Positions 28,958 through 60,952 of a DNA stretch of 64,000 nt are shown one piece after another (position 1 is the stretch's first letter; each line of letters opens with the position of its first letter). The DNA is from Lutibacter sp. B2 (GTDB taxonomy: Bacteria > Bacillota > Clostridia > Peptostreptococcales > Thermotaleaceae), in assembly GCA_015686845.1 (NCBI GenBank), contig JADPRS010000005.1:1-64000 (forward strand). The letters run 5' to 3'. The notes beneath the pieces were generated by a model. That model saw only the letters and a list, made by a program, of their open reading frames with translations, did not search any database and was not told the origin of the DNA. Both the position numbers and the translations under genes were made by a program.

Positions 28958-28958
28958 T

Positions 28959-35037: not shown

Positions 35038-35107
35038 TACACATGAAAGAGGAATAAATAGAATAATTTGTAAAAATGATTTAATCAGAAATTAAATATA
35101 TAGCTAT

Positions 35108-39600: not shown

Positions 39601-42041
39601 ATGATCATACGATTTTATCAAGAACAAAAATACAAGTACCTTTATTTGATCTTACCGAGTATGTTCGTAAAGGAACAGGTGATAGTGCAACAGATGGTGG
39701 AAATTGGGGTGTAGATAAATTTAAATCTCCTACAGTGGCACATGCCATTATAAAAGCGTTGGAGAATAATGGTATAAGTTATGATTTTCAAGATTATGGA
39801 TGGGGATTATATGTAGCGATGATCGATGGAGAAAGAGAAAAAGATTATAAAGGAATGTCAGGTTGGATGTATCGATTAAACAACAAACTACCTAGTATAG
39901 GATGTCAAGGTAAAAGTATAAGTGATAATAATGAGCTTGTTTGGTACTATGGTGCATATGGATTTGACAATGTATATACAAAAATGAATGTTGATCAAAG
40001 TTCTATACCTGTAGGTGGAGAAGTAAAAATTCATGCAGATGGGTATGAAAATGGATTTAGCAACAATGTTTCTTCCTTGAAGGAAGCCACTGTTTTAGTA
40101 AATGGAGAACCTTTTGAAATGGAAGGAAAAGTTGTAAAAACAGATAATGCAGGAAATGCAACATTGAAATTTGATGAAAATGGCACATATAAAATTTCTC
40201 TTATTCGATATGCTAAAAAGGGCAAATATTATATAGACATTGTAAGACCTGTACCAATAAGTATTAAAGTAGGAACAGGAGAGTCAAATCATGTTGAACT
40301 GAAAGTAGAAAATTCGGAATACAAAGAAGAAAGTAAAATAGTCAATGATCAAAATGCTAAAGAAAGTGAAGTCATAAAAGCAGTAGATAAGGTTACTGAA
40401 AAACTAAGCAAAAATGCAGATGCAGTAAAATCAGAAGACGATGCTAAAAAAATGATTAGTCACGGTAAAGATGTTTCAAAAATTATGGAAAAAGCTATAG
40501 AAAGAGTCAAAAATGAAGATAGTGCAAAAGATATTGCAAAACAAAGTACAAAAGTGGTAGAGCTTTTAGGAAAATCACTTAAAAGATTGACAAAAGATGA
40601 AGATAAAAAGAAAATGAGTAAAGTAATCGTAGAGAGTATTAAAATAACATTAAAGGCAATAGATAAAATAAAAGATCAAGCAGATTTAAATGAGATCGTA
40701 GGTAATATGATAGATATTATTAAAAACTTATCTAAAGATATTGGTGAAAAGAATGAAAAAGAAGTGATAGAAAATGTAGTGAAAATAGCAGAAAAAATAG
40801 TTGAGAAAGCGACTGTAAAAGAATTTGATAAGAATGAATTGATATTAGAAAAAGAAAAAGCTATAGCAATAGTGGATAAAAATACCATGAAAGAAATGGC
40901 TAAAAACACAGCAATTACAGTAAAAACAATCAAAGATAAATTAAAGAAAAACGGGTTTGAAAGTAAGAAAGCAATGGAGAACAAAGTAACTATTGAAATA
41001 CCAAAGACGGATAAAAAAGAAATAGAAACAAAATTACCTAAAGATGCTATGAAAATATTACAAGAAAAGGGTATCGAAAAAGCAGCTATTAAAACAGAAT
41101 CGGCAGTATTTAATTTAACACCAAAAACATTTGCTGAAGAAGAAAATAATAAAGAAATAGGGTTAAGTGCAAAAGAGATTGATAGAAACACATTAACACC
41201 ACTTCAAAAACACAAAGTACCAAAGGGATGCATCCTTGTAGATTTAAATGCAAAAGCAGGACAAGAAAAAGTAAGCAACTTCAATGAACCAATAGAAGTA
41301 AGTGTTCCTTATAAGGGAATAGTGAAAAAAGGTGAAGTTGTACAAGTATTTTTGCTAAAAGATAATGGAACTATCGAAAGTATGGGTGGTGTATATGATG
41401 CTGATATAAAGATGGTAACATTTACAACTCCTCACTTTAGCAAATACTTTGCAAAGAAAGCAGACAAAGAAGAAATACAAGAAACAAAAGTAACATTTAA
41501 AGACCTTAAAGGCTATGAATGGGCAAAAGAAGCTATTGAAGCTATGGCAAACAAAGGTATCATCAATGGTCGTGGAGAAGCTATGTTTGACCCAACTGCA
41601 AATATTACAAGAGCAGAATTTGCAACATTAGTTACAAAAATGATGGGATATTCTACAGAAAATATGAATGTACCATTTACAGATGTAGCAAAAGATGCTT
41701 GGTACTGCAACTATGTAGGAGCAGCATACAAAAATGGTCTAATCAATGGTAGAAATAAAACAGTATTTGATCCAAATGGAAAAATTACAAGACAAGAAAT
41801 GGTAGTGATCGTTGCAAAAGTTCTTGAGAAAAAAGGATATAGCAAAGCAGAATTAAAAGAGTTAGAGATTTTTAAAGATCAAGGACAGATTGCTCCATGG
41901 GCAAAAGATTCTGTAAGCTTATGCGTAAAAGAAAAAATAATTAGTGGAATGGGCAATAATACATTTGCACCAACACAAAATGCGAATAGAGCACAAGCTA
42001 CTGTAATGATTAATAGAGTAGACAATTTAATGAATAAATAA
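36642..42041 (+). CDS. Giant SLH-anchored barrel + DUF4430 surface protein
   Basis: 1799 residues. Order seen: signal peptide (1-28), a beta domain, a Big_5-like domain (about 127-262), Big_2 (263-348), an (alpha/alpha)6 barrel (about 349-646; GMNSVIFGLIALDAGEY, DITGMAITALAPY, ESCSQVIMGLCTNGIDP), Ig-like and FN3-like domains (651-970), DUF4430 (about 978-1110; KGMSGWMYRLNNKLPS), a Lys/Glu-rich helical stalk (about 1215-1390), a ZU5-like beta region (about 1400-1600) and three SLH repeats (about 1616-1799) for cell-wall attachment. Barrel plus DUF4430 is the intrinsic-factor/transcobalamin architecture. Very probably a surface corrinoid binder, repressed through riboswitch 2. Confidence 0.85.
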   Translation: MKTNKKFFSIFLAMILIVLTIFPSFAAGIHADPVQETYRSGQWLTLTAESGQDGHMKWYEIDPKGEKQEWTNTKKICNHYIYAFNDSLFNDTKETVSTVVYAVYETVSGSVYQNMEIKVEPDPERLEIVDMYPQYGDKGVKKDAEISVTFNQPVEFNEENTASRQVKVRYDENEDGRVVEYYPNKEASYKNKLIFRDETPNKVIIQICDENENPIHMKESYEYKIDVYPRWIQAKMRNPFHESEYANEFVKYRFDTYPIPKTIKINKPNKTIYTGESVQLTVTGISDEGKNIVDYQPVWGTSNPNIALVDEKGVFRARTAGKVTVYASIEGKEDQKEAIEIEIKKENEYSQRIKAAIDGAINVGLDNNNSMDWIVVGLARAGKTDQIPENYIKNVEAKLKKNNGEFPNTPTEYARMTLGVLAAGKNPRNIAGYDLIEKICNADLEDQGMNSVIFGLIALDAGEYDIHKDAKWTREKIITNILENECHYIQDGKEFEGGWSLKSEKDTNPPSDPDITGMAITALAPYNNDKYPKVKEAVDRAVKFLSAVQKDSGGYFSWDTANSESCSQVIMGLCTNGIDPVSEKFTKNGNNLIDGLLSFELPEHGGFAHMLVQGRLELDGMGNEQALYALDQYMYYLEGKGSIYQWGKDNIAPSIDVKNLPSDIVSQDGKLEFEVYVKDNRDEHIVPEVKFENKVVIKNQAGKYDIQIKEGKNKITIVAEDTLNNKAVKEYTIIRYKQKYPVGQKIQLQNNLPIKLQGANGEIDIDLEGIELEKEASLNVSDETENELYQPSKDTGLKVVGPIMNFDFEGAHIDQQHSVTLKLSAKEGMDTNKSSIYYFNDQTKEWEYIASTYKNGKFIAQVTHFSVYGIMTDEKAPENVCVQSKMVSSDKVLLNMSADDDSFIKAYQIFRDNFEGAPKAVISKSEYLDIDVKANTQYQYKIKAVDVFGNVSDFSEVLDITTPDTSTSGEEEQKEETTSVYLRIEGYDHTILSRTKIQVPLFDLTEYVRKGTGDSATDGGNWGVDKFKSPTVAHAIIKALENNGISYDFQDYGWGLYVAMIDGEREKDYKGMSGWMYRLNNKLPSIGCQGKSISDNNELVWYYGAYGFDNVYTKMNVDQSSIPVGGEVKIHADGYENGFSNNVSSLKEATVLVNGEPFEMEGKVVKTDNAGNATLKFDENGTYKISLIRYAKKGKYYIDIVRPVPISIKVGTGESNHVELKVENSEYKEESKIVNDQNAKESEVIKAVDKVTEKLSKNADAVKSEDDAKKMISHGKDVSKIMEKAIERVKNEDSAKDIAKQSTKVVELLGKSLKRLTKDEDKKKMSKVIVESIKITLKAIDKIKDQADLNEIVGNMIDIIKNLSKDIGEKNEKEVIENVVKIAEKIVEKATVKEFDKNELILEKEKAIAIVDKNTMKEMAKNTAITVKTIKDKLKKNGFESKKAMENKVTIEIPKTDKKEIETKLPKDAMKILQEKGIEKAAIKTESAVFNLTPKTFAEEENNKEIGLSAKEIDRNTLTPLQKHKVPKGCILVDLNAKAGQEKVSNFNEPIEVSVPYKGIVKKGEVVQVFLLKDNGTIESMGGVYDADIKMVTFTTPHFSKYFAKKADKEEIQETKVTFKDLKGYEWAKEAIEAMANKGIINGRGEAMFDPTANITRAEFATLVTKMMGYSTENMNVPFTDVAKDAWYCNYVGAAYKNGLINGRNKTVFDPNGKITRQEMVVIVAKVLEKKGYSKAELKELEIFKDQGQIAPWAKDSVSLCVKEKIISGMGNNTFAPTQNANRAQATVMINRVDNLMNK
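41562..41651 (+). repeat. 90-bp segment identical to 51884-51973 (SLH region)
   Basis: The first-SLH DNA of this gene is identical base for base to 51884-51973 in the 1094-residue paralogue. A second block in the last SLH repeat (about 41897-41999) differs by one base from about 52218-52320. The flanking regions have diverged, so recent gene conversion or strong exchange between paralogues is likely. Confidence 0.8.
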
Positions 42042-42189: not shown

Positions 42190-42195
42190 GATCTA

Positions 42196-42523: not shown

Positions 42524-45500
42524 ATGAATAAAAGGCTAATGAGTATTTTTTTAATTATAGCTTTATTATTTAGCTGTGTTCCATCGCTTGATTCGGTATA
42601 TGCAGAAGTTGAATACCAGGAACATGTATTGATTAAAAGTGAAGGAGAAGAAATTGATCAAAGGCAAATAACGGTAGGAGAAAGTATAATCTTATATGCT
42701 GAGGTAGAAGATAATCAAGGAAAAAAAGTAACTGATTATTCAATGAAAGATACAAAGTATAGTTGGACTAGTCAAGATGAAACAAAAGCAACTGTTAGTA
42801 ATAATGTATATGGAATAGGAACGATAACAGGAATAGATCCAGGAACATTTAAAGTAATAGTAGAAAGTATTGATCGTAAAAATTGCGAACCAAAAGAAAT
42901 AGAGATCACAGTAATAGAGGATAAGCTAAAATATGAAGGACATGTAAAAATAAATAATGAGCCAGAAAAAAAAGAAATAAAAGTAGGAGAAGAAATAGAT
43001 TTATATGCAATAGTAGTAGATGAAAAAGGAGAAGAGATATTAGATTGGGAGGACAATTCAAAATATACAAATTACAAATGGGAAAGTAAAAATACAGAAG
43101 TGTTAAAAATAGAAGTAGATCAGTGGGATACATATGCGGCAAAAGTAAAAGCAATAGCATCAGGAAAAGCAGTATTAAGAATAGAAAGTGAAGATTGTGA
43201 ACCAAAAGAAATAGAAATAACAGTAATAGAGGATAAGTTAAAATATGAAGGACATGTAAAAATAAATAATGAGCCAGAAAAAAAAGAAATAAAAGTAGGA
43301 GAAGAAATAGATTTATATGCAATAGTAGTAGATGAAAAAGGAGAAGAGATATTAGATTGGGAGGACAATTCAAAATATACAAATTACAAATGGGAAAGTA
43401 AAAATACAGAAGTGTTAAAAATAGAAGTAGATCAGTGGGATACATATGCGGCAAAAGTAAAAGCAATAGCATCAGGAAAAGCAGTATTAAGAATAGAAAG
43501 TGAAAATTGTGAACCAAAAGAAATAGAAATTACAGTAATAGATGATAAACCTGTTCCTCAAGAAGGAGAAATAGCTAGTATAAATATTTCACTAGATCAA
43601 GATATTGAAGAAATAGAATGTGGAAGAAATATAAAATTAAATGTTATGGCGAAAGACAGTAAGGAGAAAGAAATAAAAAAACCACATATTGTATGGAAAA
43701 TAGAACCTAAAGATAGTGCAACAATAGATGATAATCATATATTTCATGCATCCAAATCAGGAAGTATATGCATAAAGGCTACAACAGAAAAAGTAGATAA
43801 AAACCCTATAGAAAGTAATACACTTTCACTAAAAGTAATACAATCAAAAACAAGAGAAGAAAAGATTAATGAAGCCATAGATAATCTTAAAATACGTTAT
43901 AAAAATCCAACCTTTTATGGATCAGACGGACTTTCAGATAAATATATAGGGGAATTAGCATTAGCACTTAGATATTCAGGAATGAATATAGAAGAAATTA
44001 ATAAGACAAAAAAGATATTTTCAACAGATGCAGGAGCTTATAGTCTTTTAAATACTTCGAAAAATATTATGACGCTTATTGCTGTAAATGAAGATCTAAA
44101 AGAAGAGGTAGAAAAAATACTAGATGATTCATTTGTTTTTTATAAAGACAATGATGTAGATGCTGAAAAACTTATATATGCAATAATAGCCCTTGATATG
44201 GCTGATGCGGAGTATAATAAAACAGAAGCTGTAAAAGCGTTAATCAGTATGATGAAAAAAGATAGTGATGGAAAAAATTATATTGAGTCTTATGAGCATA
44301 TAGATGTAAATTTAACAGCTAAGGCAATGATTGCACTTTCTAAACACAAAGAGATAGAGGGCGCTACTGATGTAATCGATGGGATTAAAAAATGTTTAAA
44401 GAGTTTACAAAGTGAATCGGGATTAATAAAAGATGATAGTACCTCAGGAATTGGAGAAAGTTGTAGTGTAACAGCTGAACTAATTCAAGGAATTATAGCA
44501 CTTGAAGAAGATCCTTTAGATGAATATTGGACGATAGAAGATAAGTATGGAAATAAAAATAATTTAGTAGATGCAGTACTTGCATGTAGAGATGGACAAA
44601 GATTTAAAAAATCATTAAATGGAAGTGTAGCAAATATACAGACAGATGCAGCTATTGCAGCACTTGCAGACTTGAAATCAGGAAAATCTATGTATCATGA
44701 GCTAAAATATGTAAAAGCAGGAGTACCTTCTAAAATAGAAATAACCAATGAAGAACATATAGAAGTAGTAGAAGGAGATACTGTTGAAATTAAAGCTACT
44801 GTATATGATAAGGACAATAATGTGGTAAGAAATGAAAGTATTCAGTGGGAAAGTAGTGACCTAGAAAAAGCAACAGTAGAAAATGGACTAGTAAAGGCTT
44901 TAGGTGATGGAGTAGTAAAAATAAAGGTATATTTAGAAAAAAATCAAGATATCTTTGATGAGATTACTATAAATATAAAAGCTGGTACTTCACCTGAGAT
45001 TCTAAAACAAAGATTAAAAGAGGAAATTGAATTTTTAAAAGCTCACTATGAAGCATACGATCAGTATGAATTTGTAGCTGCTCCAGCATCAATAATTTCA
45101 GGCATTGATGAAATTAAAGTTCAAGAAAAATTACAAACATATAGAAAATATACTAGTACTTATCAATATGCAACATTAATAATATCAGCGTTAGGAGCAG
45201 AGCTTGAGCCACGAAATATTGAGCTTGAAGGAAGTAAGAAAAATAGTGTTGATATATTAAGATCTCACCAAATTAAAGAGGGAAAAAATAAAGGACAGTT
45301 CATAATAAATAATTATTCTGATACTGATTCTATTGAAACTTTAGGATATTCTATAATAGCACTTGATATGGCAGATGCAGATTATGATAAAGAATCAGCT
45401 ACAAAGGCTTTAATAAAGTTACTCGAAGATCCTAACATTAAAATGAAACTAGGACAAGATGAAGTGAAAATAAAAGCAGTAGCATTAACTGCTTTTGCAA

Positions 45501-47440
45501 ATCATAAAAGCATTGAAGGGGTTACTGAACAAATAAAAAGTATTATAAATTTATTAAAAGAAAAACAAAGTAACGATGGAGGATTTGGGTCAAAATTAGG
45601 AATGAATAGTGTGATTGCTACTGCTAGGGTTACGCAAGCACTTATAGCTAATGAAATAAATCCGTTATATGACAAAAGATGGATGAAAAATAAAAAAACA
45701 GTTATGGATAATATGTTGAAAAATAAATATGAACATCCAACAGATATAAGCAAATCAGGTTTTTCTAAATTTGGTGGAGGAGCACTTGATTATCATTCTA
45801 CCTATTATGCATTTGCAGCTTTTACAGATATGTATTCAAATGAATCTATGTTTAAAAGGTTTGCAAAAAAATATGATAAAAAAATTATTGCAGGGGAAAT
45901 TAGAAAAATAGATATTCTACAGAAAGACCCAAATAAGATATTTAAGATGTTAATGGGACAACCATTAAAGCTTCAAGTAGCTGCATTTGATAATCAAGAT
46001 AACTGGATAGAAAATCCTGCTATTATATGGACCTCTTCTGATGAAGAAAAAGCTACTGTGAAAGATGGTTTTGTAGAAGCGAAAACTATAGGGCAAGTAA
46101 CTATTACAGCAACTATTAAAGATACAAAGATAAAAAACAGTATCAAAATCAGTATAGAAGATTCAGGGATTAAAAATATAAAAATTCAGTGCAATAAAGA
46201 TAAAATTAGAGTTGGAGATACTATAGAATTAAAATCTCAAGGTTTTAACAAAATAGATCAGCCGTTAGAAGGACTATCATTTACTTGGGAAGTGGATAAT
46301 AAAGACGTTGCTAAATTATATGAGAGGGAAGGAAAAATGTATTTAGAAGGGTTAACTAAAGGGAAAATCGTTTTAAAAACGAAGTTAAAAAATCAACCTA
46401 ATATAAAACATGAAATGTCTATAGATGTGATAGATAAAAAATTAGCCAAGGTAAAGGTAAGCGTAGAAGGTCTAGACGAAACGATTGTACCACTAACTGA
46501 AATAGAAGTAGAAAATTTAGATTTAGGGAAATATGGTAATGGAAGTTGTATTTTAGAAGAGAATCCAACAGCAATGAATACAGTAATTGCTGCATTACAA
46601 AAAAACAATATAGATTGTATGGATAATGAACAATTTTATGCAGGGGGAGAATTATCTAGAATTACTAACATTAAAGGAATGAAAGAAAGTGCTGAAGGAT
46701 TACCTTATAGTGGTTGGTTGTATTTCATTAATAATGATTTTCCAAAAACACATGCAAAAGAAACCCAAATCCATAAAGGAGATACGATTAGTCTTGTTTA
46801 TTTAAAAGATTATAGAAACCAATTTTATGCATATTTTGATAAAAATGAAAAAAAGGTTAAGACAAGTACAAGTTTTACTATCAATTTGAAAGAAAATGTG
46901 AGTAAAGATAAAGCTATGGATGAGCATGAAAAGAAGAATATAGAGAATGCTCAAATATTTGTAGATGGAAAGCCATATGTAGTAGAAGGTAAAAATGTAG
47001 TAACAGATCAAGATGGAAATGCTGTATTGAAGTTTGAAAAAGAGGGAGAATATCATATCACTGCAACAAGAATCACAGGTGGTGTTGTAGATATTACGAA
47101 ACCTCACTGTAAAGTGATTGTAACGAATGAATTAGAACAATTTGAAGTAAAACTAAGTAATGAAAAATATTCAAAAGGTGAAGAAGCAAGATTAACCATG
47201 ATTATAACAAATAGTGACGAAGAACCTTCTAACATGCTTTGTAAAATCCAGCTATGTGATGAAAGTAACAAAGTATTAAAAGCAAGTAGTATAGAAAAAG
47301 TACTAGAGGGTAATGGAAAAACAACTTTAGCACCAGGATTTTCTATACCCGATGAGGGACGTTATAAAATAAAAATATTCTTATCAGATGGAAAAGAAGA
47401 AAATATATTTGAACCAACGAAAACAATAGAGATTAACTAA
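42524..47440 (+). CDS. Giant secreted protein with two barrels, Ig repeats and DUF4430
   Basis: 1638 residues: signal peptide (1-28), Ig/Big-like domains (about 30-440, including two nearly identical 104-residue copies at 132-235 and 236-339), a first (alpha/alpha)6 barrel (about 441-728), a Big_2 domain (730-822), a second barrel (823-1125), two Big domains (1126-1305), DUF4430 (about 1306-1450; PYSGWLYFINNDFP) and a C-terminal beta region. No SLH repeats, LPxTG or lipobox are visible, so attachment is unclear; it may bind other surface proteins. Two barrels for one DUF4430 domain is unusual. First gene of the riboswitch-3 unit. Confidence 0.82.
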   Translation: MNKRLMSIFLIIALLFSCVPSLDSVYAEVEYQEHVLIKSEGEEIDQRQITVGESIILYAEVEDNQGKKVTDYSMKDTKYSWTSQDETKATVSNNVYGIGTITGIDPGTFKVIVESIDRKNCEPKEIEITVIEDKLKYEGHVKINNEPEKKEIKVGEEIDLYAIVVDEKGEEILDWEDNSKYTNYKWESKNTEVLKIEVDQWDTYAAKVKAIASGKAVLRIESEDCEPKEIEITVIEDKLKYEGHVKINNEPEKKEIKVGEEIDLYAIVVDEKGEEILDWEDNSKYTNYKWESKNTEVLKIEVDQWDTYAAKVKAIASGKAVLRIESENCEPKEIEITVIDDKPVPQEGEIASINISLDQDIEEIECGRNIKLNVMAKDSKEKEIKKPHIVWKIEPKDSATIDDNHIFHASKSGSICIKATTEKVDKNPIESNTLSLKVIQSKTREEKINEAIDNLKIRYKNPTFYGSDGLSDKYIGELALALRYSGMNIEEINKTKKIFSTDAGAYSLLNTSKNIMTLIAVNEDLKEEVEKILDDSFVFYKDNDVDAEKLIYAIIALDMADAEYNKTEAVKALISMMKKDSDGKNYIESYEHIDVNLTAKAMIALSKHKEIEGATDVIDGIKKCLKSLQSESGLIKDDSTSGIGESCSVTAELIQGIIALEEDPLDEYWTIEDKYGNKNNLVDAVLACRDGQRFKKSLNGSVANIQTDAAIAALADLKSGKSMYHELKYVKAGVPSKIEITNEEHIEVVEGDTVEIKATVYDKDNNVVRNESIQWESSDLEKATVENGLVKALGDGVVKIKVYLEKNQDIFDEITINIKAGTSPEILKQRLKEEIEFLKAHYEAYDQYEFVAAPASIISGIDEIKVQEKLQTYRKYTSTYQYATLIISALGAELEPRNIELEGSKKNSVDILRSHQIKEGKNKGQFIINNYSDTDSIETLGYSIIALDMADADYDKESATKALIKLLEDPNIKMKLGQDEVKIKAVALTAFANHKSIEGVTEQIKSIINLLKEKQSNDGGFGSKLGMNSVIATARVTQALIANEINPLYDKRWMKNKKTVMDNMLKNKYEHPTDISKSGFSKFGGGALDYHSTYYAFAAFTDMYSNESMFKRFAKKYDKKIIAGEIRKIDILQKDPNKIFKMLMGQPLKLQVAAFDNQDNWIENPAIIWTSSDEEKATVKDGFVEAKTIGQVTITATIKDTKIKNSIKISIEDSGIKNIKIQCNKDKIRVGDTIELKSQGFNKIDQPLEGLSFTWEVDNKDVAKLYEREGKMYLEGLTKGKIVLKTKLKNQPNIKHEMSIDVIDKKLAKVKVSVEGLDETIVPLTEIEVENLDLGKYGNGSCILEENPTAMNTVIAALQKNNIDCMDNEQFYAGGELSRITNIKGMKESAEGLPYSGWLYFINNDFPKTHAKETQIHKGDTISLVYLKDYRNQFYAYFDKNEKKVKTSTSFTINLKENVSKDKAMDEHEKKNIENAQIFVDGKPYVVEGKNVVTDQDGNAVLKFEKEGEYHITATRITGGVVDITKPHCKVIVTNELEQFEVKLSNEKYSKGEEARLTMIITNSDEEPSNMLCKIQLCDESNKVLKASSIEKVLEGNGKTTLAPGFSIPDEGRYKIKIFLSDGKEENIFEPTKTIEIN
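42917..43540 (+). repeat. Two tandem 312-bp coding repeats
   Basis: Copy 1 (42917-43228) and copy 2 (43229-43540) are almost identical DNA, each coding one 104-residue Ig-like domain that begins EDKLKYEGHV and ends EIEITVI. I see only scattered base changes, such as AAGCTA/AAGTTA near the start of each copy. A third, diverged copy precedes them. The near identity indicates a recent duplication and possible length variation between strains. Confidence 0.92.
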
Positions 47441-49078: not shown

Positions 49079-52000
49079 ATGATAAAAAGAAAAACAGGTA
49101 GTTTATTATTATCGTTGTTATTCCTATTATCATTAACGGCTACTTCATTTGCACAAATTGATTTTAAAGTTGATGTAGATGATGGTAACATCAAAATGAA
49201 CGGAACAACAGAAGATAGCAATAAAGTTGTTGTGGTACAAATTAATGATGGAAAGAAAAAGGTTTATTTTGACCAAGGGTTAACAGATGGAAATGGGAAA
49301 TTTCACTTTCGAACTCAGTTAAAAGCTAATAATGATTACCGTGGATATTTTTTAACAGAGGGGGAGCAACAAAATTTTATATTTAAAACAGAAAAAAAAG
49401 AAATTATCATAGAAAAAAAGACCAATAAAGAGAAAATTAAAGAAGTAGTAGATGGATTAAGAAAGTATTATAAAAATGATAAAGATGAATTCGATTTTAA
49501 AGAAGCAATAGGTTATTATCATACAAGTGAAGACATAACTAATGGTATTGCTACAATAAAATCAAAATACAAAAAGAATTCAGAACTTGATTATGCAACA
49601 GGTTATGCAGGAAATATTATAGGGATGATTGCGAGTGGACTCAATCTAACTACTACTGAAGATGTAAGCACCCTTGTAAAAGCACAAAAACCAAGTGGGT
49701 TATTTGAAATAAGAAATGAGAGTGGTCAATCTACTCAAACGTCTTGGAGTATTGTAGCCCTTGATATGATAAAAGCAAAATACAATGAAGAAGCTGCTCT
49801 AAAAGCTCTTATAGAATTACAAGATAGATCAGGTAGCTTTGGAAGTATTGATCATACTGCTATGTGTATGATGGCTCTTGAGAAGCATAAGAATATAGAT
49901 GGTGTTACTGAAAGTATCAATAGAGCTAAAAAATATTTATTAGAAAACAAGAAAAATATCATTGAAAATAAAAATGTATATACTGTAGCTACAGTGATAC
50001 AAGGACTTGTTTCTATAGGGGAAAATCCTTTATCTAATACATGGACTATAGATAATAAAAGTATGCTAAGTGCTTTATTAAGACATATGAAACAACAAGA
50101 AAGTTTTGGAAGTCGTAGTGCAAATGAACAAGCCTTTATGGCCCTTGCAGATTTGTATAAAAAAGAGTCGATGTTTACAAAGACTAGTGTAAGCAATGAA
50201 GGATTTGAACGTTTATTTGTAGAACAAGAAAATTCTCAAACAGACAACACTAAACCAGATATTACTGTTCCTGAAAAGAAAATAATGGTTACTCTTTCTA
50301 TAAAAGGATATAAAGGAACGACTTTATCAGAGCAAGAAGTAGAAATTAAAAAAGATGAAAGTTTATGGGATGTTACAAAGAGGATGCTTGATAAAAATGG
50401 GAAATCTTATCATATAAAGACGGATGGATTTGTAGATAGTATAGATGGCCAGAATACACGAGATAAAGGCGCTTATAGTGGATGGATGGTTAATGTTAAT
50501 AACGAAACTATAAATACAGGAGTAGAGAGTTATGAATTAAATGGTGGAGAAAGAATACGTTGGTTCTATACCTTGGATTATAGAACAGATACAAGAAATA
50601 CAGGTGAATCAAGTGCAGAAATAAAGGATGAAGTAGAAAATCAAATAGATGCAGCAAAAAATATTATAGATAATAAAAATGTAAGTGAAAATGATATTAA
50701 AAAAGCAATGAAAGAGGTATCTTTTAAATTAAAAGAGAAGGCAGACAAAATAAATTCAAAAGCAGATGCTAAAGCTTTCGTAAAAGATGTAAAAAATATG
50801 TCTAAAGTAATGGAGAAAGCTGTAGATAAAATTAAAACAGAAGAAGGAGCAAAGGAGTTAGCGAACGAAAGTATCGATATAGTGAAAACATTAATAAAAT
50901 CTGCTGAACAAGTAAATGAAAATGATGATAAAAAAGAAATCAGTGAAGCAGCAGCAGAAAATATGAAAATGATCCTTAAAGCAATGGATAAAATCAAGAG
51001 TAAAGAAGCAAATGAAATTGCAGGAGATATTATTGAGTCTGCAGGAAATCTAATGAAAAAAATAGGAAAAGAAAATTCTAAAGAAATCAAAGAAAAAGCA
51101 GTACAAGTAGCAAATAAAGCATTAAAAAAAGCTAGTACTAAAATAGTTGAGAAAAATCAGGTAAAAGTAGAGAAGAAAAAGGTAATTGCTAAAATAGATG
51201 CCGAGAGTTTAAAAGATTTAGCAAAAACAGCAGCAAATATTGCAAAAGATATGAAAGAAAAATTAAAGAAAAATGATATCGTAGCAAATCAAGTATTTGA
51301 AAAGAAAGTAACAATAGAAATTCCTCATATGGATCAACCAGAAGTAGAAATAAATCTACCAGCAAACATGATGAAAAGTTTAAAAGAAAATGGAATTGAA
51401 AAAGTATCCATTCAAACAGAGGTGGCATCATTTGATGTGACACCAAAGACTTTTGGAGAAAAAGTAATAGATCAAGAAATTAGTCTGAGTGCAAAAAAAG
51501 TAGATAAAGATAATCTTCTTGAACTTGTAAGAAACAAAGTGCCAGAAAATAGTATTATCGTTGATTTAAATGTAAGCGTAGGGCAAGAAAAAGTAACTCA
51601 ATTTGAAGAGCCTATTACAATAAGTATTCCATATGAAGGAGAAGTAAAGATAGGGGAAAAAGTAGAAGTATTTTATTTAAAAGACGATGGAAATATTGAA
51701 TCTATGGGTGGAGTGTATGACTCCGTTACAAAGACTGTAATGTTTAAAACTTCTCACTTTAGTAAATATTTTGCTAAGATAGTAGATGAAGCAGAAGATG
51801 ATATATTGAAGAATACATTTAAAGATCTTAAAGGTTATGATTGGGCAAAAGAAGCTATTGAAACTATGGCAAATGAAAAAATTATCAATGGTCGTGGAGA
51901 AGCTATGTTTGACCCAACTGCAAATATTACAAGAGCAGAATTTGCAACATTAGTTACAAAAATGATGGGATATGATACTGAAAATATGAATGTATCATTC

Positions 52001-52363
52001 ATAGATGTAGAAAAAGATGCTTGGTACTATAATTATGTAGGAGCAACATACAAAAATGGATTAATTAATGGACGAAGTACAGCTGTATTTGATCCAAATG
52101 GAAAAATTACAAGACAAGAAATGGCAGTCATAGTTGCAAAAGTACTTGAGAAAAAAGGATATGATAAAGCAGAGTCAAAAGAATTAAATATATTTAATGA
52201 TAAAGAAAATATTACATCATGGGCAAAAGATTCTGTAAGCTTATGCGTAAAAGAAAAAATAATTAGTGGAATGGGCAATAATACATTTGCACCAGCACAA
52301 AATGCGAATAGAGCACAAGCGACTGTAATATTGTATAAACTTTACAATTTAATTAAAAAATAA
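49079..52363 (+). CDS. SLH-anchored barrel + DUF4430 surface protein
   Basis: 1094 residues: signal peptide (1-25), an Ig-like domain (about 26-105), a barrel domain (about 128-366; TQTSWSIVALDMIKA, DHTAMCMMALEKHKN), DUF4430 (about 401-503; DKGAYSGWMVNVNNETI and the ERIRWFYTLDY strand), a helical stalk (about 515-690), a ZU5-like beta region (690-905) and three SLH repeats (about 915-1094). It is closely related to 36642-42041 and 57736-60897 over the last 600 residues. Third gene of the riboswitch-3 unit, followed by a terminator. Confidence 0.87.
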   Translation: MIKRKTGSLLLSLLFLLSLTATSFAQIDFKVDVDDGNIKMNGTTEDSNKVVVVQINDGKKKVYFDQGLTDGNGKFHFRTQLKANNDYRGYFLTEGEQQNFIFKTEKKEIIIEKKTNKEKIKEVVDGLRKYYKNDKDEFDFKEAIGYYHTSEDITNGIATIKSKYKKNSELDYATGYAGNIIGMIASGLNLTTTEDVSTLVKAQKPSGLFEIRNESGQSTQTSWSIVALDMIKAKYNEEAALKALIELQDRSGSFGSIDHTAMCMMALEKHKNIDGVTESINRAKKYLLENKKNIIENKNVYTVATVIQGLVSIGENPLSNTWTIDNKSMLSALLRHMKQQESFGSRSANEQAFMALADLYKKESMFTKTSVSNEGFERLFVEQENSQTDNTKPDITVPEKKIMVTLSIKGYKGTTLSEQEVEIKKDESLWDVTKRMLDKNGKSYHIKTDGFVDSIDGQNTRDKGAYSGWMVNVNNETINTGVESYELNGGERIRWFYTLDYRTDTRNTGESSAEIKDEVENQIDAAKNIIDNKNVSENDIKKAMKEVSFKLKEKADKINSKADAKAFVKDVKNMSKVMEKAVDKIKTEEGAKELANESIDIVKTLIKSAEQVNENDDKKEISEAAAENMKMILKAMDKIKSKEANEIAGDIIESAGNLMKKIGKENSKEIKEKAVQVANKALKKASTKIVEKNQVKVEKKKVIAKIDAESLKDLAKTAANIAKDMKEKLKKNDIVANQVFEKKVTIEIPHMDQPEVEINLPANMMKSLKENGIEKVSIQTEVASFDVTPKTFGEKVIDQEISLSAKKVDKDNLLELVRNKVPENSIIVDLNVSVGQEKVTQFEEPITISIPYEGEVKIGEKVEVFYLKDDGNIESMGGVYDSVTKTVMFKTSHFSKYFAKIVDEAEDDILKNTFKDLKGYDWAKEAIETMANEKIINGRGEAMFDPTANITRAEFATLVTKMMGYDTENMNVSFIDVEKDAWYYNYVGATYKNGLINGRSTAVFDPNGKITRQEMAVIVAKVLEKKGYDKAESKELNIFNDKENITSWAKDSVSLCVKEKIISGMGNNTFAPAQNANRAQATVILYKLYNLIKK

Positions 52364-52511: not shown

Positions 52512-52702
52512 CTTTGTTAAGGGAAAAGGGTGAAAAACCCTTGCTGTAGTCGCAGCTGTAATCGGTGATGAAAAGTAGAATATGCCACTGTCGAGTTATC
52601 TACTAGATGGGAAGGTCTACTTTGAAGATGATCCGTGAGCCAGAAGACCTGACTTGACATGCTTCAATGTACCTCCGACCTAGAGGTGATTGAAGATATA
52701 TG
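52512..52702 (+). promoter_or_regulatory. Cobalamin riboswitch 4
   Basis: Same aptamer form as riboswitch 1: AAGGGAAAAGGGTGAAAAAC (52519-52538), GCTGTAGTCGCAGCTGTAA, ATGCCACTG, GGGAAGG, GATCCGTGAGCCAGAAGACC. The last hairpin CTTCAAT..ACCTC / GAGGT..ATTGAAG (52662-52695) has the loop CGACCTA; CGAC is complementary to GTCG in L5. It controls the DUF4430 lipoprotein, ECF transporter, barrel protein and SLH protein. Confidence 0.93.
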
Positions 52703-52737
52703 TAGAATGCTCATTTTGTGTGTATAACATATATCTT

Positions 52738-52770
52738 TAACCTCTTTCTGGTCTGGGAAGGGGTTATTTA
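52738..52770 (+). terminator. Riboswitch 4 expression-platform terminator
   Basis: AACCTCTTTC (52739-52748) pairs with GGAAGGGGTT (with two G-T pairs) and is followed by ATTTATTAT, a weak T-run. The antiterminator is striking: AAGATATATG (52693-52702) pairs with CATATATCTT (52728-52737) and AGAGGT (52682-52687) with ACCTCT (52740-52745). Confidence 0.7.
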
Positions 52771-52796
52771 TTATGTAGTAAATGGAGGGGTTTTAT

Positions 52797-53735
52797 ATGA
52801 AAAAAATAATATCATTTTTTCTAGCTATAATGTTTGTATTTCTATGTATAGGCTGTAACCAACAAGATAGTGTAGAAACTGGTAAGGTAAATGTAATCAT
52901 TTCAAAAGATTTTGGAAACAAAGAGTTATCTAAGAAAAATGTAGATTTTTCAAAAGATTTAAGTGTTATGGAAGTGATGGAAGAAAACTTTAAGGTAGAG
53001 ACTGCTTATGGTGGAGGATTTATAAATGCAATTGATGGTCTCAAATCAGGATTTACAGGTGTAAAGGATAAAAAGAAGAAAGATTGGTTTTATTATGTAA
53101 ATGGGATACTTGCTCAAGTGGGAGCAGAGGATTATTATTTAACCCCAAATGATTTTATAATATGGGACTATCATGACTGGGACAATAATATTTATGGTTC
53201 GAGTATTATTGGTGCTTATCCTATGAATTTTACCAATGGACAGGAAGGCGATTTGTTTAAGACAGAAATTTTACATACGAAAGAGTATGAAAAGGAAAGT
53301 CAAGAAGTAAGCACATTTTTAAAGAAAAAAGGATTAGAAAATATAGATGTAAAAAACTTAAAAGAAGAAGGATTAGAAAATATACAAACAAACACAATTG
53401 TTATTGGAACATGGGAAGAAATATCTCAAATAGATTATTTGAAGGATTTTTATAAAAATGGAAATAAAACCGGATTGTTTTTCAGAATTGAAAAAGACAT
53501 ACAAGCTTTAAATAGTAAAGGTAATATTACTGATGAATATGAAAAGGGTGCTGTAATTACTTCTATGGTGAAAGAGTATGGAGTTTCAACAAGTATATGG
53601 TTGGTGACGGGAAATGATGAGAAATGTATAAAAAAAGCAGTAAAACTTCTTTATGAAACTCCAGAAAAGATAAAAGGTAAATTTTCTATTATTGTAACAG
53701 AAAATGAAATGATCAATATTCCGACAAATAAGTAG
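52797..53735 (+). CDS. DUF4430 lipoprotein, predicted corrinoid-binding partner of the ECF transporter
   Basis: 312 residues from ATG 52797 behind GGAGGGG. The lipobox CIGC places the mature N-terminal Cys at about residue 20, so it is tethered to the outer membrane face. DUF4430 spans about 28-155 with TAYGGGFINAIDGL, DWFYYVNGILAQVGAEDYY and FIIWDYHDW. The C-terminal domain (about 160-305) is shared with 22561-23667. It is the first gene after riboswitch 4 and nine bases before ecfT. ECF systems normally lack binding proteins, so a lipoprotein feeding an ECF complex would be atypical. Confidence 0.85.
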   Translation: MKKIISFFLAIMFVFLCIGCNQQDSVETGKVNVIISKDFGNKELSKKNVDFSKDLSVMEVMEENFKVETAYGGGFINAIDGLKSGFTGVKDKKKKDWFYYVNGILAQVGAEDYYLTPNDFIIWDYHDWDNNIYGSSIIGAYPMNFTNGQEGDLFKTEILHTKEYEKESQEVSTFLKKKGLENIDVKNLKEEGLENIQTNTIVIGTWEEISQIDYLKDFYKNGNKTGLFFRIEKDIQALNSKGNITDEYEKGAVITSMVKEYGVSTSIWLVTGNDEKCIKKAVKLLYETPEKIKGKFSIIVTENEMINIPTNK

Positions 53736-53743
53736 GTGATTTT

Positions 53744-54628
53744 ATGATAAAAACACATCCATGTACAATGATCTTATTTTCTATGATTTTATTTTTTATG
53801 ACACTTGTATACAGTCATCCTTTATATGTTGCGTCTATATTAGCGTTTGTTATCATTAGTATATTATTTTTAGGAGAAGGAAAAAGGCTTAAATCAACCA
53901 TAAAGTATGGACTTTATACAGCCATTATGGTAATGATCATAAATCCATTAGTGTCTCATTCAGGAAGTTCTATTATTTATAAAACACCTAAAATTCCTGT
54001 TTTGGGTAAAATTAAAATTACTTGGGAAGCGGTGGCTTTTGGATCAAATATGGCATTAAAGTTATTTTGTATATTATTAATATTTTTGTTTTATTCAGTA
54101 ATGACCGATAGAGATGAAACATTCAGTTTTTTATCTAAATATGCCCATAAGCTTACTCTTACCTTATCTATGACTACCAATATAATCCATAGATTGAAAC
54201 TGGAAATTATGAGGGTAAAGGATGTAATGATTTTAAGAGGGGTCAATTTCAATGAGAAAAATTTAATAAAGAGAATAAAATCATACTATCCTATTTTAAA
54301 AGTGATTTTTATATCTTCTTTAGAAGGTTCATTAGATCGAGCTGAAAGCTTATATTCTAGAGGATATGGTAAGGGCGTTAGAACTTGTTATTCTCAAGTG
54401 AAAATTAAAACAATAGATTACTTATTTCATGGGATTAATCTAGTATTATTATTTCTATTAGGATATGGCATTTTTCTGCATGTAGGAAGTTTTCAATTTT
54501 ATCCTGTACTTCAATCCTTTGAATACAAAGATCTTATTTTTTTGATTTTTATAGATGTGACTTTATTGATGGCCATTTTTCTGATTTGGGGGTGTAAAAG
54601 ATGGAAGTTTTTAAAATACAAGATCTAA
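53744..54628 (+). CDS. ecfT: ECF transporter T component
   Basis: 294 residues with about six hydrophobic helices and the two coupling-helix signatures of EcfT proteins, seen as MILRGVNF and SLDRAESLYSRGYGKG (A-R-G-type motifs contacting the ATPases). It couples ATP hydrolysis to toppling of the S component. The start overlaps nothing (nine bases after the lipoprotein gene), and its end overlaps the ATPase gene by 28 bases. Confidence 0.9.
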   Translation: MIKTHPCTMILFSMILFFMTLVYSHPLYVASILAFVIISILFLGEGKRLKSTIKYGLYTAIMVMIINPLVSHSGSSIIYKTPKIPVLGKIKITWEAVAFGSNMALKLFCILLIFLFYSVMTDRDETFSFLSKYAHKLTLTLSMTTNIIHRLKLEIMRVKDVMILRGVNFNEKNLIKRIKSYYPILKVIFISSLEGSLDRAESLYSRGYGKGVRTCYSQVKIKTIDYLFHGINLVLLFLLGYGIFLHVGSFQFYPVLQSFEYKDLIFLIFIDVTLLMAIFLIWGCKRWKFLKYKI

Positions 54629-56181
54629 CATATTATTATCCTAGAAAGAAAGAAGCTGCTTTAGAAGAGATAAATTTATCTATAAAAGAAGGGGAATTTA
54701 TAGTACTTTTTGGAGAATCAGGTTCTGGAAAATCTACCCTAGCAAGAGTATTCAATAAAATTGTGCCTGAATTTTATGGTGGTAAAATAAAGGGTAATAT
54801 AGAGAGTAAAGTTGATGTAGGCATGGTTTTTCAAGATCCAGAAAAACAATTGGTGATGGATAATGTAGAAAGAGAGATTGCCTTTGGACTTGAAAATTTA
54901 GGAATTGAATATGACAAAATGCGAAAAAAAGTAATGGAAACCCTAAGTTTTTTAAATATATGGGAGATACGAGATAAAAAAACTTATGAACTTTCAGGAG
55001 GTCAAAAGCAGAAGGTAGCTATAGGTGCTACTATTTCTATGGGCTATAAATTTTTAGTTCTAGATGAACCAACATCTCAACTTGATCCTGTAACGGCTGA
55101 GGAAATATTACATATTTTAAAAAGATTAAATGAAGAATTAGGGTATACCATAGTTTTGATTGAGCAACGGATCGATCGATGCTTTCACTTAGCGGATAGA
55201 GTATTATTTATGGAGGAAGGTAAATTAACATTTGATGGAGAACCAAAAGAATTTGTAGCTTGGAATTATGCAAATGAAAATAACTTTTCGCCTTCTGTTT
55301 CTGAATACTTTGTAAGAACAGGCAATAGTACTATACCTCTTACAATAAAAGAGGGAAGAAAACAATTAAGAAAAACAGGTTGTTTTGACAATGAAGTAAA
55401 AGTTGAGAGTAAAATTCAATACGATAAAAATGATGAAGCGATACATATGAAAAAAATTCATTTTACCTATAAAAATGGAAAAAAGGCTCTTAATGGAGTT
55501 AACTTAACTGTTTTTAAGGGAGAAATACTAGGGGTTATGGGAGAAAATGGTGGAGGCAAATCTACCTTACTTAGAAATATTGCAGGGTTAATAAAACCTG
55601 ATCAAGGGAAGTTAACTGTAAATGGAGGGGTAGGATATCTTTCACAGAATCCAAATGATTATTTATTTAATGATACGGTTTATGATGAATTGAAATATAC
55701 ATTAGATCAAAAAGGAATTGAGGATCTGTCCATTATTGAAAAAACATTGATGGATTTGAATATTTTAAAGTATAAAGATAAAAATCCTAGAGATTTAAGT
55801 GGTGGAGAAAAACAGAGAGTAGCCTTAGCGTGTATTCTTGTAATGGAACCTGAAATACTTATTTTAGATGAACCTACAAGGGGACTTGATAGAAAATTGA
55901 AGGACAAACTAGGAGAAATTATATTTGATTTTAAGAGTAAAGGAAAAACCATTTTATTGGTGACACACGATGTTGAATTTGTAGGTAAGTTTTGTGATCG
56001 AGTTTGCTTGATTTTTGATGGAAGTGTAGCACAAGTAGGTTCTAAATATGAGGTTTTAACAGATGGAATTTATTATACTACTCAAATGAATAAGTTATTT
56101 AGCGGATATATAGATAATATTATTACCTTAGAAGATGCGCTTTCTATAAATAATCAATCTTTAAAAGAAGGTGTTATTTAA
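54601..56181 (+). CDS. ecfA: Fused ECF transporter ATPase (A-A')
   Basis: 526 residues carrying two complete ABC ATPase domains in one chain. First domain (about 1-230): Walker A GESGSGKST, signature LSGGQKQK, Walker B LVLDEPTSQLDP. Second domain (about 285-500): GENGGGKST, LSGGEKQR, LILDEPTRGLDR. Most Firmicutes encode EcfA1 and EcfA2 as separate subunits; the fused form is seen in dedicated single-substrate ECF modules. It overlaps ecfT and precedes the S-component start by one base. Confidence 0.95.
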   Translation: MEVFKIQDLTYYYPRKKEAALEEINLSIKEGEFIVLFGESGSGKSTLARVFNKIVPEFYGGKIKGNIESKVDVGMVFQDPEKQLVMDNVEREIAFGLENLGIEYDKMRKKVMETLSFLNIWEIRDKKTYELSGGQKQKVAIGATISMGYKFLVLDEPTSQLDPVTAEEILHILKRLNEELGYTIVLIEQRIDRCFHLADRVLFMEEGKLTFDGEPKEFVAWNYANENNFSPSVSEYFVRTGNSTIPLTIKEGRKQLRKTGCFDNEVKVESKIQYDKNDEAIHMKKIHFTYKNGKKALNGVNLTVFKGEILGVMGENGGGKSTLLRNIAGLIKPDQGKLTVNGGVGYLSQNPNDYLFNDTVYDELKYTLDQKGIEDLSIIEKTLMDLNILKYKDKNPRDLSGGEKQRVALACILVMEPEILILDEPTRGLDRKLKDKLGEIIFDFKSKGKTILLVTHDVEFVGKFCDRVCLIFDGSVAQVGSKYEVLTDGIYYTTQMNKLFSGYIDNIITLEDALSINNQSLKEGVI

Positions 56182-56182
56182 T

Positions 56183-56806
56183 ATGAATTATGGTGTATTA
56201 TCAGCAGTTATTTTATTGATGTGTATTATTTTTGTTTTTATATCATATGAAAGAAAAAATACTTCAATCAAAGAAATTTCTATGATCGCCACTTTAGCTG
56301 CACTAGCAGGAGTAGCAAGAGTGCCTTTTGCAGCTATTCCAAATGTACAGCCTACTACATTTTTAGTGATCATATCGGGCTATGTGTTTGGATCAGGATT
56401 TGGATTTATGGTAGGTGCATTTGCTACGATTGTTTCTAATAGTTTTTTAGGACATGGACCTTGGACACCATGGCAAATGGTAGCTTGGGGACTTGCAGGT
56501 TTTAGTGCAGGGTTATTGAAGAAAGTTTTAAAAGATCCTTCTACGTTAACTATTAGTATTTTTGCCTTTTGTTGGGGATTTTTATTTGATTATATAATGA
56601 ATTTATGGCATTGGTTATTTTTTGTATATCCACTGAACTTGAGAAGTTTTATTATGGTTTATATGAATTCATTTTATTTTGATTTAATGCATAGTATAGG
56701 TAATTTTATGTTTGCGTATTTCTTTGGAAAAGATTTTATTAATATATTATCGAGGTTTAAAGACAGGATTAGCTATACGGAGATTCCTGTTGAAAAAATA
56801 GATTGA
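56183..56806 (+). CDS. ECF transporter S component, predicted corrinoid-specific (CbrT-like)
   Basis: 207 residues, about six hydrophobic helices, with FAAIPNVQPTTFLVIISGY and FGFMVGAFATIVSNSFLG (positions about 50-95) and the GPWTPWQMVAWGLAGF segment. These are typical of the CbrT-like S-component group linked by riboswitches to cobalamin uptake in other Firmicutes (recalled, not checked). I chose ATG 56183 near GAAGGTG; GTG 56171 would overlap the ATPase gene. Its place in a B12-riboswitch transcript supports corrinoid or a precursor as substrate. Confidence 0.88.
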   Translation: MNYGVLSAVILLMCIIFVFISYERKNTSIKEISMIATLAALAGVARVPFAAIPNVQPTTFLVIISGYVFGSGFGFMVGAFATIVSNSFLGHGPWTPWQMVAWGLAGFSAGLLKKVLKDPSTLTISIFAFCWGFLFDYIMNLWHWLFFVYPLNLRSFIMVYMNSFYFDLMHSIGNFMFAYFFGKDFINILSRFKDRISYTEIPVEKID

Positions 56807-56818: not shown

Positions 56819-57673
56819 ATGAGAAAAATAACAGCTTTAACCATTGCTTTCATAATGATTTTTACAAGTTTTGCATTTGCGGTAGATTCAAATACTACTG
56901 CAAAGTATTTGGAAAAGAAAAAATTAGATGAATGGGGAATTTTAGCTTTATATTCTTCTGGAAAAGATGTGAAAAATAAGATATTAAAAAAAGTGGATGA
57001 TTCACAGGTTACAACGGATTATGAAGCCTATCTAATGGGGGCAGTACCTATGGGGAAAGATGTTTGTGATTATGCAGAAAAAATAATAAAATCCCAAAGA
57101 CAAAATGGGAAATTTGCAGATTATATTGATGGGACTGAAGATGAGTTGATCAATGCTCAGATATGGGGAATAATCTCATTATATACGGCTAATAAAGAGA
57201 ATTATGATAAAAAAAAGGCTTTAAGTTGGCTTAAAGAAAATCAAAATGAAGATGGTGGATTTTCAGTATTTACAGGAACAAAGTATTCAGATGTTGATTT
57301 AACAGCTATGGGACTTATTGCATATAGCGTATTAGGACTTAATCAAAATAGTGAAGAAGTAAAGACGTCACTTAGTTTTATTGAAAAAAATATTGATAAA
57401 AAAGAAAGCTGTGAGTCTGTGGCGTACTACATATTAGCCAAAAAGAAATTAGGAATGAAGATAGATAAAAGTTTATACAATAAACTTTTAAAATATCAAT
57501 TAAGAGATGGATCTTTTAAACATTTAAAAAGAGGTTCAAAGGGAAATTATATGGCAACTTGGCATGGATTACTAGCCATGACAGATTATAAGAATGAGTG
57601 TTCGATTTTTACAAGATTACATGATATGAATAAGGCAAAGGATGAAAAGAAGAAGGTTGTAGTAAAAAAGTAA
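56819..57673 (+). CDS. Secreted barrel protein, stand-alone
   Basis: 284 residues with a signal peptide (1-20, ending FAFA). Helical repeats of the squalene-cyclase/intrinsic-factor barrel type: INAQIWGIISLYTAN, LKENQNEDGGFSVF, DVDLTAMGLIAYSVLG, KYQLRDGSFKHL and TWHGLLAMTDY. It has no DUF4430, lipobox or SLH. It follows the ECF S gene by 12 bases with GAGGAGG as ribosome site. With the DUF4430 lipoprotein of the same transcript it could form a two-chain version of the intrinsic-factor fold (inference). Confidence 0.82.
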   Translation: MRKITALTIAFIMIFTSFAFAVDSNTTAKYLEKKKLDEWGILALYSSGKDVKNKILKKVDDSQVTTDYEAYLMGAVPMGKDVCDYAEKIIKSQRQNGKFADYIDGTEDELINAQIWGIISLYTANKENYDKKKALSWLKENQNEDGGFSVFTGTKYSDVDLTAMGLIAYSVLGLNQNSEEVKTSLSFIEKNIDKKESCESVAYYILAKKKLGMKIDKSLYNKLLKYQLRDGSFKHLKRGSKGNYMATWHGLLAMTDYKNECSIFTRLHDMNKAKDEKKKVVVKK

Positions 57674-60897: not shown

Positions 60898-60900
60898 TAT

Positions 60901-60946
60901 AAAGGATAAAACCTGCTAGGCATTACATTAGCAGGTTTTATCCTTT
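60901..60946. terminator. Bidirectional terminator
   Basis: A perfect 18-bp stem (60901-60918 / 60929-60946) with GGCATTACAT as loop, between two convergent genes. Confidence 0.88.
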
Positions 60947-60952
60947 ATTTAA

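Follow-up and report, generated by a model that had tools for sequence, protein, structure and literature searches.

A putative corrinoid-uptake operon of Lutibacter sp. B2 combining a CbrT-like ECF transporter with transcobalamin-like extracellular proteins

In the textbook scheme of energy-coupling factor (ECF) importers, it is the membrane S component that binds the substrate directly. A precedent for outside-facing parts exists in the nickel and cobalt ECF importers with the extra extracytoplasmic subunits CbiN, NikN and NikL, which are small and membrane-anchored, serve metal ions and are not known to contain a transcobalamin-like domain. The subject of this work is an ECF transporter locus of Lutibacter sp. 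B2, contained in positions 1 to 64,000 of contig JADPRS010000005.1 (assembly GCA_015686845.1; this whole stretch of 64,000 nucleotides is called the window), in which a gene encoding a lipoprotein of the DUF4430 family precedes the genes of the T, A-A' and S components. Among the described systems, ECF-CbrT (structure 6FNP) is the vitamin B12 ECF transporter of Lactobacillus delbrueckii (PMC5997447). The purified complex takes up cobalamin into liposomes with an apparent Michaelis constant (KM) of 2.1 nM, CbrT without the ECF module shows a dissociation constant (Kd) for cobalamin of 9.2 nM, and cobinamide is also carried, the affinity of CbrT for cobalamin being about four times tighter than for cobinamide (PMC5997447). 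The L. delbrueckii cluster has the order nrdJ-cbrS-cbrT-pduO, and cbrS is named once, without explanation (PMC5997447). For Lacticaseibacillus rhamnosus, a protein is tabulated as 'Additional lipoprotein component of putative cobalamin ECF transporter', and the same source places a DUF4430 protein, LGG_02295, near rtpR (PMC9963975). In vertebrates, the DUF4430 domain is named in the C-terminus of the TCN proteins (PMC4350170). The isolated beta domain of transcobalamin (TC-beta) binds cobalamin and cobinamide, and TC-alpha and TC-beta made separately co-elute only with cobalamin (PMC5599065), whose binding by the human carriers is so tight that release needs proteolysis (PMC5997447).

The locus is probably a corrinoid-uptake operon, in which intrinsic-factor-like surface proteins and the lipoprotein would catch a corrinoid and deliver it to the ECF complex. 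An earlier note on this DNA had described a lipoprotein, EcfT, EcfA-A' and S, in this order, and the coordinates of the open reading frames (ORFs) and the Pfam matches bear it out: a T component, two ATP-binding cassette (ABC) ATPases and S stand in the order T, A-A', S of an ECF transporter (Table 1). That note contained no riboswitch. A cobalamin riboswitch aptamer ends 126 nucleotides upstream of the lipoprotein start, which places the operon in a cobalamin riboswitch regulon; further additions are an attenuator-like hairpin, in a region (52660-52775) that folds much better than its own shuffles (z-score -4.98), and two downstream genes reaching up to 60900. The genes are tightly packed, with 8 nucleotides between the lipoprotein and T genes, overlaps between T and A-A' and between A-A' and S, 12 nucleotides between S and the toroid gene, and 62 between the toroid gene and the gene at 57736. 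No other strong terminator-like site was found on the plus strand between the attenuator-like hairpin and 60900, and a weak six-pair site at 55014 is inside the A-A' gene. Since the next strong terminator-like site of this strand is at 60900, the two genes downstream of S (56819-57673 and 57736-60897) probably belong to the operon transcript too. The lipoprotein frame shows a possible alternative start at 52782, and the ATG at 52797 is favoured because of the GGAGGGG at 52784-52790; the S ORF opens with a GTG at 56171, and several relatives begin with MNYG, which corresponds to 56180.

Table 1. Features of the putative corrinoid-uptake operon and of the related genes in the window
Feature	Coordinates	Strand	Evidence or remark
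Cobalamin riboswitch RF00174	52472..52670	+	Rfam 83.3 bits, gathering cut-off 31.5
Attenuator-like hairpin in the interval between riboswitch and lipoprotein gene	52738..52766	+	13-pair stem, T-rich tail
DUF4430 lipoprotein: signal peptide with Cys20, transcobalamin-beta-like domain, BcsB-like alpha/beta domain	52797..53735	+	
EcfT, transmembrane energy-coupling subunit	53744..54628	+	CbiQ PF02361 7e-10
Fused EcfA-A' ATPase	54601..56181	+	two ABC_tran stretches 1e-53; NCBIfam ECF_ATPase_1 363.1 bits, cut-off 315
CbrT-like S component	56180..56806	+	PDB sequence match 6fnp
Secreted alpha-alpha toroid protein, carrier alpha-domain-like	56819..57673	+	Prenyltrans PF00432 8.8e-8, 32.3 bits, cut-off 26.5; 3' of S in relatives
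S-layer-type, intrinsic-factor-like protein (toroid-like, DUF4430 and three SLH), 1053 residues	57736..60897	+	
Terminator-like hairpin at operon end	60900..60947	+	20 pairs, T-rich tail
Lipoprotein paralogue behind riboswitch 22259-22424	22561..23667	+	aligns over both domains, without lipobox Cys
DUF4430 protein behind riboswitch 35093-35286	35737..36534	+	
Big_2, toroid, DUF4430 and SLH surface protein	36642..42041	+	toroid profile 6.2e-17
Big_2 and DUF4430 surface protein with toroid-like region, behind riboswitch 42182-42366	42524..47440	+	toroid profile 3.9e-7
Second DUF4430 and SLH surface protein with toroid-like region, 5' of operon riboswitch	49079..52363	+	toroid profile 49664-50197, 5.1e-10

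Pfam assigns the S component to ECF-ribofla_trS (4.4e-12) and ECF_trnsprt (8e-8). A phmmer search with this protein against the sequences of solved structures shows chain A of 6fnp at 4.7e-13, followed by a chance match at 0.97, and a profile of 18 relatives against the PDB shows 6fnp at 1.1e-33 and the next chain at 0.0043. These matches mark the S component as homologous to CbrT instead of other S families, and the alignment with CbrT contains common stretches around NVQP, SN-FLG-G-WT and FD--HA-GN. Riboflavin and folate S components were rejected, with 29.1 of 99 and 24.4 of 60 bits in NCBIfam while the CbrT match is clear, and so was a cobalt/nickel importer: EcfT belongs to CbiQ in Pfam, yet it reaches only 28.2 bits against the NCBIfam cobalt CbiQ cut-off of 111.8 bits. 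Neither CbiM nor CbiN was found in the Pfam scan of the operon proteins (best 25 families for the ATPase), and the match of the S component to CbtA is at chance level (0.92). The substrate, a corrinoid according to the earlier note, is very probably of this class, judging from the riboswitch, from CbrT as the only clear sequence match in the PDB, and from a related locus (L135) with a row of riboswitch, DUF4430 gene, S gene and cobalamin adenosyltransferase gene.

The DUF4430 match of the lipoprotein (PF14478, 4.9e-17) covers residues 61-131 of the 317-residue frame, and it is the only Pfam family found in this protein at E up to 1, with no Peripla_BP_2 or BtuF-type substrate-binding fold and no toroid domain. 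The lipobox, already named in the earlier note, reads L-C-I-G-C, with a slight deviation from the consensus at -3, and Cys20 is kept in at least 90% of the 21 alignment rows. Two rows, the window paralogue (22561-23667) and its counterpart in L060, show Trp in place of the lipobox Cys and belong to a paralogue type that is not ECF-linked; in the wider survey described below, a crude lipobox pattern is matched by 38 of the 87 DUF4430 frames, whose start sites are uncertain. The mature lipoprotein was modelled from a six-sequence alignment (pLDDT 69.5, pTM 0.64), and among the Foldseek matches of this model are BcsB, haptocorrin, intrinsic factor and 3u7z, a Ruminococcus protein. With a second aligner, mature residues 1-109 superpose on the beta domains of transcobalamin, haptocorrin and intrinsic factor with Z 11.8-13.0 over 93-98 residues at a root-mean-square deviation (rmsd) of 1.9-3.3; the matches include 5no0, the isolated transcobalamin beta domain, and 5np4, its cobalamin complex, and those to 4kki and 2v3n (Z 12.9-13.0 over 95-98 residues) identify a domain of the transcobalamin beta type. 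Residues 112-284 superpose on BcsB with Z 11.3-12.5. At the sequence level, a DUF4430-only profile of 11 sequences (A8) finds haptocorrin 4kki at 9.2e-6, 3u7z at 0.016 and transcobalamin at 0.64 in the PDB, and the whole-length lipoprotein profile (A1) finds no PDB sequence at E up to 1. NCBIfam shows no family for the window lipoprotein, and one of the 21 relatives weakly matches the SP0191-family lipoprotein (6.4e-4). The predicted fold of the DUF4430 domain is that of a cobalamin-binding domain of the human carriers.

In the protein encoded at 57736-60897, DUF4430 and the three SLH domains are above the Pfam cut-off and the toroid families are below it (0.0017 and 0.018). For its toroid-like and DUF4430 part (57841-59169), a relative from L045 and a paralogue from the window went into the model (pLDDT 63.7, pTM 0.57), whose 13 best Foldseek matches are without exception B12 carriers: intrinsic factor, haptocorrin or transcobalamin (E 4.3e-7 to 6.9e-5). 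Alignments across both domains show rmsd 12.9-14.8, and how the two domains sit to each other in this model is therefore unreliable. A phmmer search with the whole protein returns S-layer proteins only, through the SLH part, and the toroid profile (A2) matches squalene cyclases and terpene synthases among the PDB sequences and no B12 carrier.

The lipoprotein or its paralogue is matched in 17 of 59 genomes, that of Lutibacter sp. B2 included. The order lipoprotein, T, A-A', S and toroid protein recurs in the loci retrieved, often followed by an SLH-toroid protein; the exceptions are L054, which has no ECF genes, L069, which ends with its contig, and L066 and L070, in which a toroid-like gene is before or between the S genes. 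L070 shows two different S components (13035-13739 and 15377-16099) with a toroid-like ORF between them. A wider survey used a phylum sample of 398 genomes, of which profile A1 matches 88 including the own genome, and one locus was taken from each of the other 87. These 87 DUF4430-first loci contain an ECF gene in 71 cases, a CbrT-like S gene in 66, a T gene in 64 and an A-A' gene in 60; the DUF4430 gene adjoins an ECF gene in 50, and another toroid gene is present in 58. A same-strand riboswitch lies upstream in 56 of the 87, scored at 40 bits or more with a model (R1) whose 21 source riboswitches come from the window and from related loci. The 87-locus counts lean towards the finding, because A1 was built mostly from ECF-linked proteins. 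In 20 comparison regions of the same genomes, which were hand-picked and many of which are on the cluster's own contig, there were no matches to the S, T, A-A' (at least 400 bits) or lipoprotein and DUF4430 profiles; the toroid profile matched one region, and a riboswitch was found in two, both on cluster-bearing contigs.

The survey was also made from the S component, with a profile (A7) built from S components adjoining DUF4430. DUF4430 is present in 25 of 40 S-first loci without a nearby A1 match, and in 20 of the 26 loci of at least 13 kb; these 40 were selected for having no close A1 match, and about seven more S places (E <=1e-30) were left out. The check proposed in the earlier note, co-occurrence of DUF4430 with CbrT-like S genes, was strongly positive: with the Pfam model for DUF4430, and A7 for S, DUF4430 was found in 110 of 114 genomes with a strong S match (E <=1e-30) versus 11 of the 284 others (Fisher 2e-79, uncorrected for relatedness). 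With the S threshold loosened to E 1e-3, 118 genomes contain both, 52 only S, three only DUF4430 and 225 neither, and DUF4430 occurs in 121 of the 398 genomes altogether. It was also above the cut-off in two of 14 control genomes, those of Lactococcus lactis and the archaeon Methanosarcina acetivorans. The smallest sets, in seven loci, show DUF4430 and S and no T or A gene in the stretch retrieved (L109 and L129 are short contigs), and L135 is one of them; their DUF4430 proteins are small, without a second domain, and no toroid match was found in these sets. Two Virgibacillus genomes show riboswitch, DUF4430 and S. In L215 and L219-L223, the A-A' and S matches are within one long frame of 831 to 1024 residues, which suggests a predicted fused EcfA-A'-S protein.

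From these observations a working scheme can be proposed. Cobalamin riboswitches generally behave as OFF switches (PMC11477304), and low corrinoid would open the operon through a riboswitch of this type. At the cell surface, the S-layer-type toroid and DUF4430 proteins would catch corrinoid. Anchored outside the membrane, the lipoprotein would hold it with or without a separate toroid protein, probably closing on it together with the separately encoded toroid protein, in trans. It would then present the corrinoid to the CbrT-like S component, and the EcfT/A-A' module would drive import. Because the minimal form keeps DUF4430 beside S and drops the toroid and SLH parts, the DUF4430 protein would be the direct partner of S. 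The lipoprotein would allow corrinoid to be captured when it is scarcer, or from stores in which it is bound. Since release from the human carriers needs proteolysis, a relay in bacteria would have to bind less tightly or include a step of release. The corrinoid cluster encodes, at 47449-49065, a papain-like protease that also has a Lectin_like domain (Pfam), and this gene is kept 5' of the lipoprotein gene in three relatives, L050 (= L045), L051 and L052; a part of this protease in corrinoid release is only a thought. The suggestion of the earlier note that an extracellular protein delivers the substrate to the ECF complex is partly supported, by the very probable corrinoid substrate, the co-occurrence of DUF4430 with S and the predicted DUF4430 fold, while binding by the lipoprotein, its assembly in trans with the toroid protein and the handover to S we infer.

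Several points weigh against this corrinoid relay. The roles of the lipoprotein, the toroid protein and S are predicted from sequences and models, and both structure models are middling (pLDDT 69.5 for the lipoprotein and 63.7 for the surface protein). By Z, terpene cyclases and sugar epimerases rank above the B12 carriers with the 57736-60897 model (14.5 vs 12.9), so that the toroid half alone says little, and this toroid is under the Pfam cut-offs and outside the toroid-profile matches, its assignment coming from the model. L054 contains lipoprotein and toroid genes without ECF genes, and 15 of the 40 S-first loci lack DUF4430, six of them among the 26 loci of at least 13 kb. In L046 (Virgibacillus), no adenosyltransferase-like gene was seen by eye after DUF4430 and S. 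The DUF4430-S pairs of one family (L092, L099, L109, L117 and L129) show no riboswitch in the stretch retrieved, and the neighbours in L099, the one locus of the five covered by a family search, include genes for an oxaloacetate decarboxylase-type beta subunit, a carboxylase domain protein and a lactate-racemase-like protein; another substrate is possible for this family. By eye, some neighbours in L092, L109, L117 and L129 resemble those of L099. CbrT also functions in vitro without lipoprotein or toroid partners (PMC5997447), and since ECF-CbrT transports cobalamin alone, the lipoprotein would probably assist affinity or delivery without being strictly required. Finally, the genome encodes CbiD and CobS and, elsewhere, an apparent second riboswitch-linked ABC importer (names by inspection), so it may not depend on the corrinoid uptake of this operon.

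The apparent second importer is on the own contig 31, outside the window (L073, 16262-20000), where a cobalamin riboswitch is followed by genes that by eye encode a FecCD/BtuC-type permease, a BtuD-type ATPase and a CbiK-resembling lipoprotein with an apparent internal repeat. A further cobalamin riboswitch (108.8 bits) is on the minus strand of contig 29 (L075, about 9729-9911), with no ORF of at least 120 residues on its strand within the next 2 kb. The adenosyltransferase family PF01923 has no match in the genome, other adenosyltransferase families not having been searched.

Among the alternatives, the one that survives best, and that we still judge unlikely, makes the lipoprotein a structural or regulatory accessory, such as a lid or an anchor docking the SLH and toroid proteins close to the transporter, and leaves corrinoid binding to the two-domain surface proteins and S. 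In its favour, the second lipoprotein domain is similar to the domains of BcsB, whose function in the cellulose machine is one of assembly. CbrT, moreover, binds and transports without a lipoprotein (PMC5997447); the minimal sets, however, consist of a small DUF4430 protein and S, so the DUF4430 domain itself is retained, and its predicted fold is that of a proven cobalamin-binding domain (PMC5599065). The substrate may instead be a corrinoid precursor or fragment (cobinamide, alpha-ribazole or a lower-ligand base) and not complete cobamides, which seems rather improbable. A genome with CbiD and CobS could finish precursors, the riboswitch does not distinguish them from complete cobamides, and cobinamide is carried by ECF-CbrT (PMC5997447) and bound by TC-beta (PMC5599065); against this, CbrT favours cobalamin about fourfold over cobinamide (PMC5997447), and a fragment without the corrin ring, which the carrier beta domain holds, would fit neither CbrT nor the beta domain. 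SLH, Big_2 and toroid domains are widespread, and toroid enzymes rank above the B12 carriers in the toroid fold comparison, but the idea that operon accident placed the DUF4430 and toroid proteins, as generic modules of the surface for adhesion or the cell wall, beside an ordinary ECF transporter is very hard to sustain given the genome-level association, the comparison regions (none of 20 with S, T or lipoprotein/DUF4430 profiles and one with the toroid profile) and the confinement of all DUF4430 and toroid-profile matches of the genome to the window.

The window accounts for all seven DUF4430 matches, all five toroid-profile matches and four of the six cobalamin riboswitches of the genome, a concentration beyond chance, and the DUF4430, toroid and SLH proteins outside the operon are at 22.5-23.7 and 33.8-52.4 kb, with three additional cobalamin riboswitches. 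In the region 22259-34958, a cobalamin riboswitch and the lipoprotein paralogue are followed by genes encoding a MoxR AAA+ ATPase, DUF58, BatA and vWA proteins and a toroid protein, and the combination of paralogue, MoxR and vWA recurs in all nine loci retrieved from relatives (L058-L062, L064, L065, L067 and L068), as a putative corrinoid-controlled MoxR/vWA machine. The riboswitches before the lipoprotein and the paralogue are alike in their core (GCTGTAGTYGCARCTGTA) and unlike those at 35093 and 42182 (alignment A6), a difference that possibly reflects a different ligand form.

An extra lipoprotein of a cobalamin ECF transporter is not wholly new, as the L. rhamnosus annotation label precedes it (PMC9963975). 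That label apart, no bacterial DUF4430 or intrinsic-factor-like partner of an ECF transporter is described among the open-licence papers listed. The locus would join transcobalamin-like capture proteins to a transporter of the known CbrT type. An extracellular partner that is conserved and has the fold of a human B12-binding domain would add a capture step to the ECF scheme. It would also suggest how thick-walled bacteria compete for scarce corrinoids, point to a likely function for DUF4430 and for the toroid proteins that accompany it, and make these proteins bacterial counterparts of intrinsic factor and transcobalamin. The wider idea is that many Firmicutes-like bacteria have a full extracellular relay, in which S-layer-type intrinsic-factor-like proteins catch the vitamin and an in-trans clamp of lipid-anchored beta domain and separate toroid feeds a CbrT-type ECF transporter, and that this family shares its ancestry with the vertebrate carriers; ECF importers, regarded as independent of extracellular binding proteins, would then have one here. 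This wider idea is somewhat less likely than not.

Compared with the described systems, the locus shares with ECF-CbrT a CbrT-like S component and an ECF module, and differs from it, as studied with S and the ECF module (PMC5997447), by the genes for extracellular DUF4430 and toroid proteins that accompany those of T, A-A' and S. The row of riboswitch, DUF4430, S and adenosyltransferase in L135 is close to the nrdJ-cbrS-cbrT-pduO cluster of L. delbrueckii (PMC5997447). The L. rhamnosus label expresses the same idea as an annotation name, without mechanism, fold or survey in the passages on it (PMC9963975), and RUMGNA_00854 (PDB 3u7z) has the domain fold predicted for the lipoprotein (Z 12.5; profile E 0.016), its structure title giving the role only as 'putative metal binding protein'. 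BtuG of Bacteroides is likewise an extracellular lipoprotein that captures B12 for a transporter (PMC6143338), a likeness by description only, and in contrast to the proteins of this locus it is a Gram-negative surface lipoprotein whose partner is the TonB-dependent transporter BtuB (PMC10404256). With intrinsic factor, haptocorrin and transcobalamin, the locus proteins share the predicted beta domain, whose fold reaches Z about 12-13, and may share a toroid alpha domain joined to it, but unlike these vertebrate carriers they are bacterial and cell-anchored, by lipid or SLH, their alpha and beta parts are partly on separate proteins, and they would feed a transporter and not endocytosis.

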